Virus record (IMG/VR): IMGVR_UViG_3300015076_000011
Span: 1 to 23,648 of that record
Direction: 5' to 3' (one strand)
DNA: 23,648 bases
Source: a virus
Shown here: positions 1,535-18,599 of the stretch, piece by piece
How positions within the stretch are numbered: position 1 is the first letter of the stretch
Layout: each line of letters begins with the position of its first letter
Position numbers and translations under genes: made by a program
Notes under the pieces: model-generated
What the model saw: the letters and a program-made list of their open reading frames with translations, nothing else
What the model was told of the DNA's origin: nothing
Database searches by the model: none

Positions 1535-1565
1535 AAAGACAGTCCCCTTGTTTCCAAAGGGACTG
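1535..1565 (-). terminator. Hairpin terminator after the capsid gene
   Basis: Read on the minus strand, CAGTCCC (1559-1565) pairs perfectly with GGGACTG (1540-1546) over a 12-nt loop and is followed by TCTTT. It lies between the capsid stop (1623) and the adaptor start (1502). A partial terminator here would give the capsid message more transcript than the tail genes. The U-run is short, so read-through is likely. Confidence 0.6.
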
Positions 1566-1622
1566 CACTCTTAGGTCACTTACACGCCACCCGAATAGGT
1601 GTCTGCAAGCGAATCAAATGGA

Positions 1623-4030: not shown

Positions 4031-6093
4031 TCTTGCGGGGCGCTAGCTACGGGCTGCATTGCTTTTTTGTGCGCGATATAGTTTTTAACTACTTCGTGCA
4101 TATGCCCTCGCTCTCTGTGATAGTGATCTATGTGCGCTTTAGCTGCCTCGACTTCTATTTGCCGAGCTTGATTGTCAGCCGTCTTGTGCGACGCTTGGAC
4201 TTGGGCCGCTTGAATCTGTGCAGTGATAGGAACCACTTGCGCCTTAGCTTGCGTCTCTTGTGCCTTGGCTTGGTTGACGCCAACGCGCGAACTGACTTCG
4301 TCGGCTTCTGCTTTGGTTTTAGCTACGCCTGCCTCAAGTCCGGCCATTTGCAGTTCTTGTTGCTTTTGAGCAGCAGCTTGCGCGGCCGGATCAGGCTTCA
4401 TGGACTTGTCAATAGCCGCAATGATTTGATCTTTCTGCGGGCCGCTGTAGTTGTCTATGATTCCCTTCAATATGATGGGGAAGGCTGGTGATTGCTGCGG
4501 AACAACGGCCAGCAAGTTGGTCATCTGCATCTGCTCAAATTCACGAGCGACGATCGACATAGTACTGTTGACAGTGAAATACGGTATTCGCGGGTATCTT
4601 TGCGGGTTCATTTTCGAATACCGCAAAATAGACTTGCGAACTAGTTGATCTAAAAAAACGTCAACAGATTGCATGGTTAGCTTGGAGCGCTTTATAAAGC
4701 TGCTAGAAGCCATGGATTGACCGGAGGCGGTGCTGTTCGCGTTAATCGGGCTAGCGGGGTCTGAGGCGCCCGTAGCCATCTGCGCGTAGCGTTCCAAGTC
4801 CGCCGACTGTTGGAAACTAGCGCCGTTCATTGTGCCGAACTGGATAGCCTGAATAATTTCATTTGGCGGTCCGTTCGTTCTGTAAATCTTGCCGGGCGTC
4901 ACGTACGGATCAAACTTAGACGGCATCCGAGTAGAGTCTATGCCGACAGTCGGGTACGTAATTAACGCTAATGCGTCCATACGTGCCCGGACTTCTCCGT
5001 CTAACGCTACTTGGGAGTTAAACGCTTTTTCTACTACGCCAATACCGAAGAAACTATCGGGCGATTCGTGATGCTGGTAGGCAATAAACCCACGATCTTT
5101 AAGATCATTCTCTTGCGCGGAAAGCAGCCCTGTACCGTTGCCGATACACACGATTGCCTCTACATAATCAAACTCGTCATCTTCGTCCGAATCATCGTCC
5201 GAATCTTCCATCAAATCTTGGTTATCGTCTTTTGGCGTTTTGCCTTTCAGAAGATACTTAGGGACTTTGCCGTGATACTCAGTAAAGTAAATCCCGTCTT
5301 CAGCGTCTACCGTCTCAAGGTCCGTAGACATGGATTTGTTGAGAATGTCAGTAGCTCCATATCCGGCTACAGAACTTAAACTTTCATCGTCCCAATACTC
5401 ACCAGAAGCTTGCTTTTCTTTAACAATGTGAATTGGCAGCACGGTTTCGTGTGCGCAGCCAAGAGCTTCATCTATCGTCATAGCGGCCGTGTCCATGACA
5501 AAGCTGTTAGGGGCTACAGGCTCCCAGCACAAGTACCGCGTACCGTCTAACTGAGTCGTTTCTACGGCTTTAGCGATGCCCGTTCCGTAGATACCTCCGT
5601 TATAGAACACACGCTTTAGGTCGCGTTTAATTCCGCCCGTATGAAGGTCAGCAAGCAAATTGTCTCTAACTTCTTCTTCAAGCTGCGAGTAATCAACCGG
5701 AGGTGGCTGAGGTGCGGCCGGGGGTTGTCTTTGCTGGGGTGCCGCTTGGGGAGGTGCTTGCGGGTTTGGTGGCGGATCGGACAGGACTACCCAATCCCCT
5801 CGGCCAAAAACAGCGTCCATCATCTCCGCCACAGTTTGGTCAACTGCCGACTGCGAAACTGGTGTTATGATCTTAGACCGCTCTGCCTGCTTTCCTTTGA
5901 GGCTAGGGTCCCAACGTCCACGCCATATACGGTAATAGCGAATCCAATCAGACGAATAAGTGCTATCACGCTGCGTTCGCCAGCGGTTTACTTTAGACAT
6001 GATCCACGTAACTAGTTCCGGGCCTGGCTTGAAGCCTTCCCCTTCGTTACTTGAATCTGTTTTTAGTGCTTGTAAGTCTATGGTATCTGACAT
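4027..6093 (-). CDS. Portal protein
   Basis: 688 residues, a normal length for large podovirus portals. It starts with an acidic tail, then WIMSKVNRWRTQRDSTYSSD. A Pro/Gln-rich insertion lies near residues 108-132, an acidic stretch (DDDSDEDDE) near residue 300, and a long Ala/Gln/Lys helical C-terminus from about 570, as in barrel-forming portals. It lies directly downstream of large terminase and upstream of scaffold and capsid. The dodecameric portal would sit at one capsid vertex and be the docking site for terminase. The RBS is weak, so translation may depend on the terminase gene 20 bases upstream. Confidence 0.87.
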   Translation of the reverse strand: MSDTIDLQALKTDSSNEGEGFKPGPELVTWIMSKVNRWRTQRDSTYSSDWIRYYRIWRGRWDPSLKGKQAERSKIITPVSQSAVDQTVAEMMDAVFGRGDWVVLSDPPPNPQAPPQAAPQQRQPPAAPQPPPVDYSQLEEEVRDNLLADLHTGGIKRDLKRVFYNGGIYGTGIAKAVETTQLDGTRYLCWEPVAPNSFVMDTAAMTIDEALGCAHETVLPIHIVKEKQASGEYWDDESLSSVAGYGATDILNKSMSTDLETVDAEDGIYFTEYHGKVPKYLLKGKTPKDDNQDLMEDSDDDSDEDDEFDYVEAIVCIGNGTGLLSAQENDLKDRGFIAYQHHESPDSFFGIGVVEKAFNSQVALDGEVRARMDALALITYPTVGIDSTRMPSKFDPYVTPGKIYRTNGPPNEIIQAIQFGTMNGASFQQSADLERYAQMATGASDPASPINANSTASGQSMASSSFIKRSKLTMQSVDVFLDQLVRKSILRYSKMNPQRYPRIPYFTVNSTMSIVAREFEQMQMTNLLAVVPQQSPAFPIILKGIIDNYSGPQKDQIIAAIDKSMKPDPAAQAAAQKQQELQMAGLEAGVAKTKAEADEVSSRVGVNQAKAQETQAKAQVVPITAQIQAAQVQASHKTADNQARQIEVEAAKAHIDHYHRERGHMHEVVKNYIAHKKAMQPVASAPQE

Positions 6094-8018: not shown

Positions 8019-8381
8019 TTATTCGTCCTCTGATTGAATTGTTCGGCCTTTGACTGCCGGAATTTGATCTAACTTACCAATGATGATTTGAATTTTATCT
8101 TTTTGAGGTTCGTCATCTTTCGCTACGCTCTTAGTGACCCAAGAACCGTAAAGCATCTTTATCATTTCTTTGTCGCCTTCTAGCGCAAGCTCAATAGCTT
8201 TGTCTAGCAGTGCGGGCATGTGGTCCTTCATCTGAGCGCGCAATTCGCTCTCGATTTGGACCTTTAGCAAAGAAACTTGGTTTTTCGAGCCTGGGGGGCG
8301 CCCTTTAGGGTTACCGCTCTGCCCTTTCTTAAAAAGGTGTTTAGGCTTACTGCTTTCAGCCGGTAATGATTCGTCGGTCAT
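8019..8381 (-). CDS. DUF5681-like protein in the small-terminase position
   Basis: 120 residues from the ATG at 8381. The N-terminal FKKGQSGNPKGRPPGSKN is the signature of the DUF5681 family, common in phages next to terminase. A helical, Glu/Lys-rich segment follows (residues 30-75). It may be the small terminase subunit or a terminase helper; DNA-binding HTH features are not obvious. An in-frame GTG at 8414 with AGGA 4 bases before it is an alternative start. I prefer 8381 because its upstream CGAATTAAACACG closely matches CGAATAAATACG before the next gene. Confidence 0.65.
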   Translation of the reverse strand: MTDESLPAESSKPKHLFKKGQSGNPKGRPPGSKNQVSLLKVQIESELRAQMKDHMPALLDKAIELALEGDKEMIKMLYGSWVTKSVAKDDEPQKDKIQIIIGKLDQIPAVKGRTIQSEDE

Positions 8382-8436
8382 CGTGTTTAATTCGCTTCGT
8401 CTCAGAAGCGTCACTTTATCCTGTAAGGGAGTGAGG

Positions 8437-8511
8437 AAAAGCCGATCCGGACGTTATCCCGGCATAGTCCGCTTTGTATCGCGGGGCCTTACACTTAGGC
8501 TATCGGCTTTT
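8437..8511. ncRNA. Four-way-junction (cloverleaf-like) RNA element
   Basis: The gap between two virion genes holds a perfect 10-bp closing stem, AAAAGCCGAT (8437-8446) with ATCGGCTTTT (8502-8511). Inside it are three perfect 4-bp hairpins: CCGG-8 nt-CCGG (8447-8462), CCGC-8 nt-GCGG (8469-8484) and GCCT-7 nt-AGGC (8486-8500). The whole is a tRNA-shaped cloverleaf. It is not a tRNA: there is no T-loop consensus on either strand, and two loops are 8 nt. The A4/T4 ends make it a possible bidirectional terminator; it could also be an RNase III processing site or an independent RNA. It splits the virion operon between small virion genes and the terminase block. Confidence 0.55.
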
Positions 8512-8546
8512 AAACTTGCCTGTGCGTCACAAAGTGTGTCTGGCAT

Positions 8547-8867
8547 TTACGCTTCCGCAACTTTTGCGTAACTAAGGATGCCGGTGGCGCCCGCGTCTTG
8601 AATTACCGAAAGAGTGTATGCCGTGTTTCCGGCAGGAAGCTTGACAACAATCGGCCCGAACTGCGCGCCGATTAGCGGATCGGTAATTACCGCGCTGGCA
8701 GGGCCTATAGAAAATCTAAAGTGACAATTGCCCGTGGCCGCTAAAATTACGTTTTCAATGCCGACCGGGAGCGTTACCGAAACGCTGGACGCGCCGAGCG
8801 TAAGCGCCCCGGAAATACACGAGCCATCGGGAAAAAAGTTGTATATGTAACCGTTTTGAATTGACAT
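8547..8867 (-). CDS. Small beta-sandwich-like presumed virion protein
   Basis: 106 residues, mostly short beta strands with Gly/Ala/Thr turns (SVSVTLPVGIENVILAATGN). The composition resembles phage decoration or fibre-associated domains, but I cannot name a family. The start follows the previous stop by 3 bases, so it forms a pair with the next gene upstream. The RNA element at 8437-8511 lies directly after it. Confidence 0.55.
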   Translation of the reverse strand: MSIQNGYIYNFFPDGSCISGALTLGASSVSVTLPVGIENVILAATGNCHFRFSIGPASAVITDPLIGAQFGPIVVKLPAGNTAYTLSVIQDAGATGILSYAKVAEA

Positions 8868-10017: not shown

Positions 10018-10482
10018 TTACTGACCTTTGCCGAAATGCCGCATAGGCGGTGGCGAAATGGACGAACCTGCGTGAATACCAGGCTGCACCTGGCTTTGAA
10101 TTGGAGACGGGGCAATGTGCTTGCCCCACAGACGGGCTGGGGGCTGAATCGGGCTGGCCGCCCTTTCCCCGGCAGGCGGGAGGCTAGACTTGTCTGCAAT
10201 CAAGTGACGCGGGATATCGCCCGTAGGCAAATCCATAGTCGGATCGGTAATCAGGCGGCTGTTAGCATTTTCAATGCTGGTAGGCTGTGCCGCCTTCACC
10301 GCATCCGCAATCATGGCCTGAAGCTGTTCCATGCTTACCGTGATTAAGGCTGGCGAATCAACATTTTGGCTTTGCTTGCCTGGTGTGGTTTCGTCGTCCT
10401 CCACAAGTCCCACTACATCCGGCGTACCTGTAATAGGAATAGTGTCAACGATCTTTTTAAGTGAAATAGTACTTTTGCGCAT
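10018..10482 (-). CDS. Proline-rich protein of unknown function
   Basis: 154 residues. A basic start (MRKSTISLKKI) is followed by an acidic linker, a short helix around MEQLQAMIADAVKAA (residues 51-65), and a Pro/Ser/Gln-rich tail (SISPPPMRHFGKGQ). Probably mostly disordered. No domain recognised. It heads the run of four small polar genes before the two beta-rich presumed virion genes. Confidence 0.55.
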   Translation of the reverse strand: MRKSTISLKKIVDTIPITGTPDVVGLVEDDETTPGKQSQNVDSPALITVSMEQLQAMIADAVKAAQPTSIENANSRLITDPTMDLPTGDIPRHLIADKSSLPPAGERAASPIQPPARLWGKHIAPSPIQSQVQPGIHAGSSISPPPMRHFGKGQ

Positions 10483-10497
10483 AGTTTGCCCGTAGGT

Positions 10498-10647
10498 CTA
10501 TGTTGATGAGTCCGTTACCCCGCCACCTAGATTACGTCCGGTAGCCGCGACCGGATACGCCGGACGCTTGGGGATATTGGGTGCCTCGATCCGTCCTTTC
10601 GGCAGCGGCACTCCTGGGCGCGGCAATGTGATCCGCCTTTTAACCAA
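10498..10647 (-). CDS. Possible 49-residue basic, proline-rich peptide (TTG start)
   Basis: A frame opening at TTG 10647 and ending at TAG 10498 encodes a Pro-, Arg- and Gly-rich peptide (LVKRRITLPRPGVPLPKGRI at the start). It has no ATG. The region upstream (10648-10773) is noncoding and foldable. It fills the gap between two genes and shares the Pro-rich style of the neighbour downstream, which is why I list it. The lack of an ATG and of a clear RBS keeps this weak. Confidence 0.3.
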   Translation of the reverse strand: MVKRRITLPRPGVPLPKGRIEAPNIPKRPAYPVAATGRNLGGGVTDSST

Positions 10648-10968: not shown

Positions 10969-10998
10969 ATTGTACCACATTATGTATACTCAAGTCAA
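10969..10998 (-). promoter_or_regulatory. Sigma70-type promoter for the virion operon
   Basis: On the minus strand TTGACT (10993-10998), an 18-bp spacer and TACAAT (10969-10974): five of six and five of six consensus positions. The transcript would start near 10962 and run into the 56-residue gene and the virion genes. Its -10 context GTGGTACAATTC is shared with the promoter at 11717-11746 (GTGGTACACTTC) and with a -10-like site at 11841-11850 (GTGGTACAAA). Confidence 0.72.
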
Positions 10999-18482: not shown

Positions 18483-18599
18483 GTGGAACCGTCCCGCTTG
18501 TTTAACTTATTTGAGTCATTAGCGCTTATCCTAGGGTGCGCCTTTATTGGCTTTGCGATCGTTAGTTTGATGGCTGTCGCCGTGTTGGGCTTAGCCTAA
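18483..18599 (+). CDS. Small single-pass membrane peptide
   Basis: GTG 18483 immediately after the preceding stop, with GAGG 8 bases before it; 38 residues. After a short start (VEPSRLFNLFESLA) residues 15-38 are one long hydrophobic segment (LILGCAFIGFAIVSLMAVAV). No charged C-terminus, so not a typical holin. Probably an inner-membrane peptide with a role in host takeover or exclusion; unknown. Confidence 0.55.
   Translation: MEPSRLFNLFESLALILGCAFIGFAIVSLMAVAVLGLA

Follow-up and report, generated by a model that had tools for sequence, protein, structure and literature searches.

The question raised by this locus is what a 75-nt, cloverleaf-shaped RNA element is doing inside the virion operon of an uncultured phage. 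The window, that is, the whole 23.6-kb stretch of DNA analysed here (23,648 nt), is an IMG/VR virus record, and its closest cultured phages share ~32–41% identity with it (partial TerL alignments only). Integrase and replication genes occupy the plus strand. The minus strand is the virion operon, which runs from a gene at 10482 through a DUF5681 TerS-like gene, TerL, portal and a gene in scaffold position to the major capsid protein and a tail protein. Upstream of this operon, at 10969–10998 (minus), lies a sigma-70-like promoter, TTGACT-18-TACAAT, with 10/12 matches and a TG preceding the second hexamer. The cloverleaf sits in one of the operon's few gaps, flanked by two minus-strand genes, with the accessory virion genes on one side and the TerS-TerL-portal-capsid block on the other; the location of the element within the virion operon is thus as the initial annotation described. 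No sigma-70 promoter was found inside this gap. The features discussed below are as follows.

8547–8867, minus strand: gene upstream of the cloverleaf, 106 aa, of no family, with homologues in two relatives (L003 and L067)
8437–8511, minus strand: cloverleaf, a branched stem made of a 10-bp closing stem (8502–8511/8437–8446) and three inner arms
8486–8500, minus strand: arm 1, GCCT/AGGC, with a 7-nt loop AAGUGUA; absent from relatives
8469–8484, minus strand: arm 2, CCGC/GCGG, with loop GATACAAA (in RNA, GAUACAAA)
8447–8462, minus strand: arm 3, CCGG(G)/(U)CCGG, with loop GATAACGT or ATAACG (AUAACG); absent from relatives
8411–8434, minus strand: hairpin B, UCACU-C-CC-UUACA-GG-AUAA-AGUGA, an RBS hairpin containing an AGGA Shine-Dalgarno and GTG 8414
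8393–8410, minus strand: 6-bp hairpin CGCTTC/GAAGCG, between the candidate TerS starts GTG 8414 and ATG 8381
8019–8414 (GTG 8414) or 8019–8381 (ATG 8381), minus strand: TerS-like gene (DUF5681), downstream of the cloverleaf
1539–1566, minus strand: ordinary terminator-like hairpin 3′ of the major capsid gene, used for comparison

TerS has two candidate starts, GTG 8414, which lies inside the RBS hairpin, and ATG 8381, which gives the N terminus MTDES in common with L067. Because this N terminus is homologous, it suggests that TerS starts at ATG 8381, leaving a gap of 165 nt to the 8547 gene.

The fold is as first described, namely a perfect 10-bp stem closing three perfect hairpins on the minus strand. 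The closing stem, AAAAGCCGAT/ATCGGCTTTT, is paired at 10/10 positions, each arm is a perfect helix of 4–5 bp, and all four helices reach a mean pair probability of 0.87–1.00 when folded within the whole gap; the fold is predicted on both strands. GATA does begin two loops on the minus strand, those of arms 2 and 3, if 4 bp are assigned to arm 3. The element is intergenic and sense-oriented, and ends 2 nt upstream of hairpin B. A possible alternative fold, with a pair probability of ~0.08, would enclose the cloverleaf by pairing CACTTTGT (8529–8536, minus, near the end of the upstream gene) with ATAAAGTG of hairpin B (8412–8419).

How improbable is such a structure? Its stem is the sole perfect 10-bp inverted repeat of span 40–110 in the window; in 400 shuffled windows, 579 such repeats of span 50–110 arose (1.45 each), of which 64 bore at least three arms on one strand or the other and nine on both. 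As bounded, the 75 nt have a z of −3.9, and only two of 197 evenly spaced 80-nt minus-strand windows (~1%) fall below −3.5; once 10 nt of flanking sequence are included at either end, z becomes −1.94. Taken by themselves, the inner 55 nt are of ordinary stability against shuffles (p 0.14 on the plus and 0.12 on the minus strand). The improbability of the cloverleaf is therefore moderate: a stem in an intergenic gap is credible, its location in one of the operon's few gaps adding some weight to the case, and the three arms are not statistically compelling.

The outline naturally recalls a tRNA, and the initial annotation had raised a tRNA mimic, to be checked by tRNA and Rfam model scans. Neither scan bears this identity out. 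ARAGORN in bacterial mode calls no tRNA on the cloverleaf, the Rfam tRNA model (RF00005) has no match there even at E 10, and none of 4227 Rfam models matches it, the best being BjrC68 at 9.7–12 bits against a gathering score of 39. Read directly, the loops AAGUGUA, GAUACAAA and AUAACG hold neither the T-loop TTCRANY nor the D-loop GG. The relaxed mitochondrial mode of ARAGORN does call the element, as one of seven such calls in the window against 0–5 in each of six shuffled windows; calls of this kind occur at chance rate, so that the cloverleaf shape alone is not above chance.

The closing stem points in two directions. When 84,980 bacterial and archaeal genomes were scanned for the 10-bp stem with a loop of 45–65, 58 places came up, none of which is the cloverleaf element. 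At 40 of them no long ORF runs across: 13 are tRNAs, by reading of the sequences, in which GCCGAT/ATCGGC forms the acceptor stem, and the majority of the other 27 form single stems between genes, often with T-runs longer than that of the cloverleaf. The remaining matches include coding sequence. Since the same stem occurs in tRNAs and in intergenic single stems, its letters alone cannot separate a terminator from a tRNA; the interior does, and the interior of the cloverleaf is not that of a tRNA. Among viral contigs the exact stem has five matches, three of them one repeated coding sequence, and none with three arms. BLASTN of the gap returned nothing from phages and only 26-nt noise in Pantoea from plasmids; single-query searches with TerS and the 8547 protein gave no matches, and neither did a TerL search of genome contigs. 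A degenerate or mimic tRNA on the minus strand, whether a tRNA-like domain or a decayed phage tRNA gene, is accordingly highly improbable in our view: its topology, the relaxed ARAGORN call and the acceptor stem of 13 real bacterial tRNAs speak for it, but the acceptor ends lie 67 nt apart, and the T-loop, D-loop and acceptor features that ARAGORN and Rfam accept in tRNA genes of phage operons are missing from a structure that shares with these genes its outline, similar length and operon region. One related contig (L009) does have a true tRNA in its terminase intercistronic gap, a tRNA-Thr (TGT) at 4920–4996, within the virion operon and directly before TerL, which is a further point in favour of this reading.

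The same gap in relatives is more telling. Relatives were collected by TerL and portal searches, and have TerL identities to the window of 77% (L002), 74% (L003, the same contig as L064), 68% (L063), 64% (L067) and 64% (L005, the same as L066). A pre-TerS gap is present in four of them, with 159 nt in L002, 200 nt in L003, 155 nt in L063 and about 71–73 nt in L067, and absent from L005, L007 and L008. None of the four shows the cloverleaf or an equivalent four-helix fold, and all are too distant for the element to be aligned. At the corresponding spot, L063 has a plain terminator-like hairpin of eight pairs (G-T allowed), GCTGGGTGAAATGCCCGGC, followed by a U-tract, AACTTTTTCC; L067 has an 11-bp stem with one nested hairpin, no free U-tract and a z of −3.66 for the whole gap; L003/L064 has a 7–8-bp hairpin, GGCTTGTT/AACAAGCT; and L002 folds differently. 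What the relatives' gaps have in common upstream of hairpin B is the mere presence of a stem. Rfam found no matches in these gaps, and no compensatory changes preserving the helices of the four-way junction were seen in the four relatives. The four-way junction as a functional object, which is what the initial annotation had proposed, is thus not supported by the comparison: in the four relatives with a gap the inner arms are absent, and in L063 a plain hairpin stands in place of the whole, which for the arms is the outcome that the initial annotation had named as refuting its proposal. An RNA selected as a four-way junction and peculiar to this lineage, such as an attenuator or riboswitch-like element, would still account for the high pair probabilities, the intergenic position and a stability exceeding that of almost all other 80-nt windows; with no homologue in these relatives, no Rfam match and inner arms no better than shuffles, we consider it quite unlikely.

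Two further observations were made in the relatives' gaps. In L064 (5602–5729), hairpin B is followed by a 39-aa ORF (MHLRIPLGKGRSLVTVFYYSHHASKYMFLCGINRQVETT) that runs on into TerS, overlapping the TerS-start region. Just after the gene upstream of TerS, L002 (2570–2664) and L063 (3503–3543) share the segment CCGCCGCCCCCAC...GTCGTCGGKTTAGGGGCAC, which could form a pseudoknot through CUAACCG/CGGUUUAG in L063 and CUACCCG/CGGGUUAG in L002, together with GCCCC/GGGGC; one change is compensatory, and the L063 copy has no Rfam match at E 10.

We favour, at about an even chance, the reading that the cloverleaf is a variable intercistronic stem (a leaky terminator, attenuator, processing or insulating stem) with incidental arms, upstream of a conserved RBS hairpin. 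The cloverleaf would be this genome's version of the variable upstream stem ('hairpin A') of a leader whose conserved part is hairpin B, and on the minus-strand transcript hairpin A would stand between the accessory virion genes and the TerS-TerL-portal-capsid block. Being a GC stem flanked by A4/U4, it most probably serves as a leaky intrinsic terminator or attenuator, or else as an mRNA-processing or insulating stem; the three inner arms probably fill a long loop incidentally and form no tRNA-like functional domain. The stem, its position, the lack of the arms in relatives and the adjoining conserved RBS hairpin are seen directly; termination, attenuation or processing by the stem is what we infer. 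Across 8 sites, the stems ahead of hairpin B exceed the genome background in strength, though only mildly (Fisher p 0.008). As a four-way junction, then, the cloverleaf is probably ordinary, one lineage's form of an intercistronic stem.

The initial annotation, whose interpretation is supported in part, had counted a terminator or attenuator among its options. The A4/U4 GC stem favours termination, with which the U-tract hairpin of L063 agrees, as does the intercistronic position; like bidirectional intrinsic terminators, the element is intergenic, has A4-GCC../..GGC-T4 flanks and is symmetrical on both strands. Canonical intrinsic terminators are, however, limited to a stem of at least 4 bp, a loop of 3–13 nt and a stem-loop of at most 59 nt (quoted in PMC12207403), limits exceeded by the cloverleaf with its 'loop' of 55 nt holding three hairpins and its total of 75 nt. 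Its U-tract is only four long (UUUUCC), and these U4 pair with A4; the terminator tail score is 2.0 on the minus and 3.3 on the plus strand, compared with 1.7 for the post-capsid hairpin, and a simple terminator scan did not report the element. Unlike bidirectional terminators between convergent genes, moreover, it lies inside an operon. In L067 the stem lacks a free U-tract, which rules out termination as the function shared at that site. A canonical terminator is disfavoured by this tail-less stem together with the loop of 55 nt and the shortness of the U-tract. Cleavage of the branched stem by RNase III or a similar enzyme would release the TerS-capsid mRNA, its 5′ end protected and lying near the RBS hairpin, comparable to the intercistronic sites of T7, where a stable stem likewise stands just upstream of an RBS in a late operon. 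Processing would suit the stable stems, unlike one another in sequence, that stand ahead of hairpin B at several sites, and also the tail-less L067 stem. The helix of the cloverleaf is branched and, at 10 bp, at the short end for RNase III, and the stem contains no conserved sequence; we regard this putative cleavage as unlikely.

The conserved RNA feature of the gap is instead hairpin B, which the initial annotation had overlooked. An early clue to it was that arm 2 with its flanks (CCCCGC..GCGGAC) matches hairpins ahead of TerS in both L063 and L003; when every hairpin of the window gap was tested, the combined mismatch came to 1, whereas 2000 shuffles reached no lower than 3. Hairpin B was assessed by a descriptor scan and a loop-stripped alignment, as MAFFT misaligns short hairpins. 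Its pattern, immediately before the start codon, is an outer stem, C, CC, a loop, GG, A[CU]AA and the outer stem again, and the GG is the Shine-Dalgarno core, paired with the upstream CC and ~7 nt before the ATG in L002, L064 and L067. The strict descriptor gave ten matches in 1.03 Mb, where 3–4 are expected from shuffles. Six of the ten belong to a five-genome clade, where they sit right at start codons (offsets −4 to +9 nt), namely at TerS (window 8411–8434, L063 and L067) and at the homologue of the 10482 gene (L002, L063 and L064); the latter three played no part in deriving the descriptor. In the loop-stripped alignment of seven copies both sides change in all four outer pairs, and pairing fills 97.6% of cells, against a shuffled mean of 62.8%, with a covariation score of 0.905 versus 0.185 that is lost on sliding the partners and is inflated because six of the seven copies were selected with pairing required; their start-codon positions are independent of this selection. 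Pair probability is 0.7–0.99 at TerS of the window, L063 and L067 (0.54 for the window's innermost pair), and low to moderate elsewhere, 0.06–0.39, which suggests that hairpin B may require a partner or be dynamic.

Like other hairpins that sequester the Shine-Dalgarno, hairpin B pairs the GG with an upstream CC in a stem that adjoins or overlaps the start codon; it differs from them in a fixed C opposite the A[CU]AA internal loop and in two fixed C-G pairs, which recur at two genes across the clade and match no Rfam family. These properties also bear on a DNA packaging signal (cos or pac) adjoining the terminase genes. Cos sites lie directly upstream of TerS in many phages, as the cloverleaf does, and the dyad CCCCGC..GCGGAY is shared with the L003 and L063 gaps. 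This dyad is better explained by the conserved RBS hairpin pattern, and the outer stem keeps its pairing although its letters vary, a sign of RNA; with the gap absent from L005, L007 and L008 in addition, we deem a packaging signal very unlikely.

Returning to the variable stem and hairpin B, it is conceivable, and we put it forward only tentatively, that the pre-TerS gap carries an RNA control element of two parts, specific to the clade. One part would be the conserved start-codon hairpin at TerS and the 10482 gene, and ahead of it would stand a variable stem, here enlarged to a four-way junction; the two would act jointly on the timing or the level of terminase-capsid expression, perhaps via a phage protein reading the internal loop. 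The hairpin in question is defined by C opposite A[CU]AA, CC..GG pairing of the Shine-Dalgarno and a freely covarying outer stem. A small RBS hairpin with compensatory changes, recurring ahead of two genes in a clade of uncultured phages, is in any case a useful by-product, and hairpin B is a concrete candidate for a device controlling the translation of packaging and early operon genes in these phages.

Within the window, two looser resemblances to hairpin B were also seen. One, which falls outside the strict descriptor and has a pair probability of ~0.2, is the following.

10481–10501, minus strand: second hairpin-B copy, AUAG-A-CC-UAC-GG-GCAAA-CUAU, overlapping the ATG of the gene at 10018–10482

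The other (GGCGCACCCTAGGATAAGCGCT), at 18521–18542 (minus), lies outside the virion operon and antisense to a plus-strand gap, and may be due to chance.
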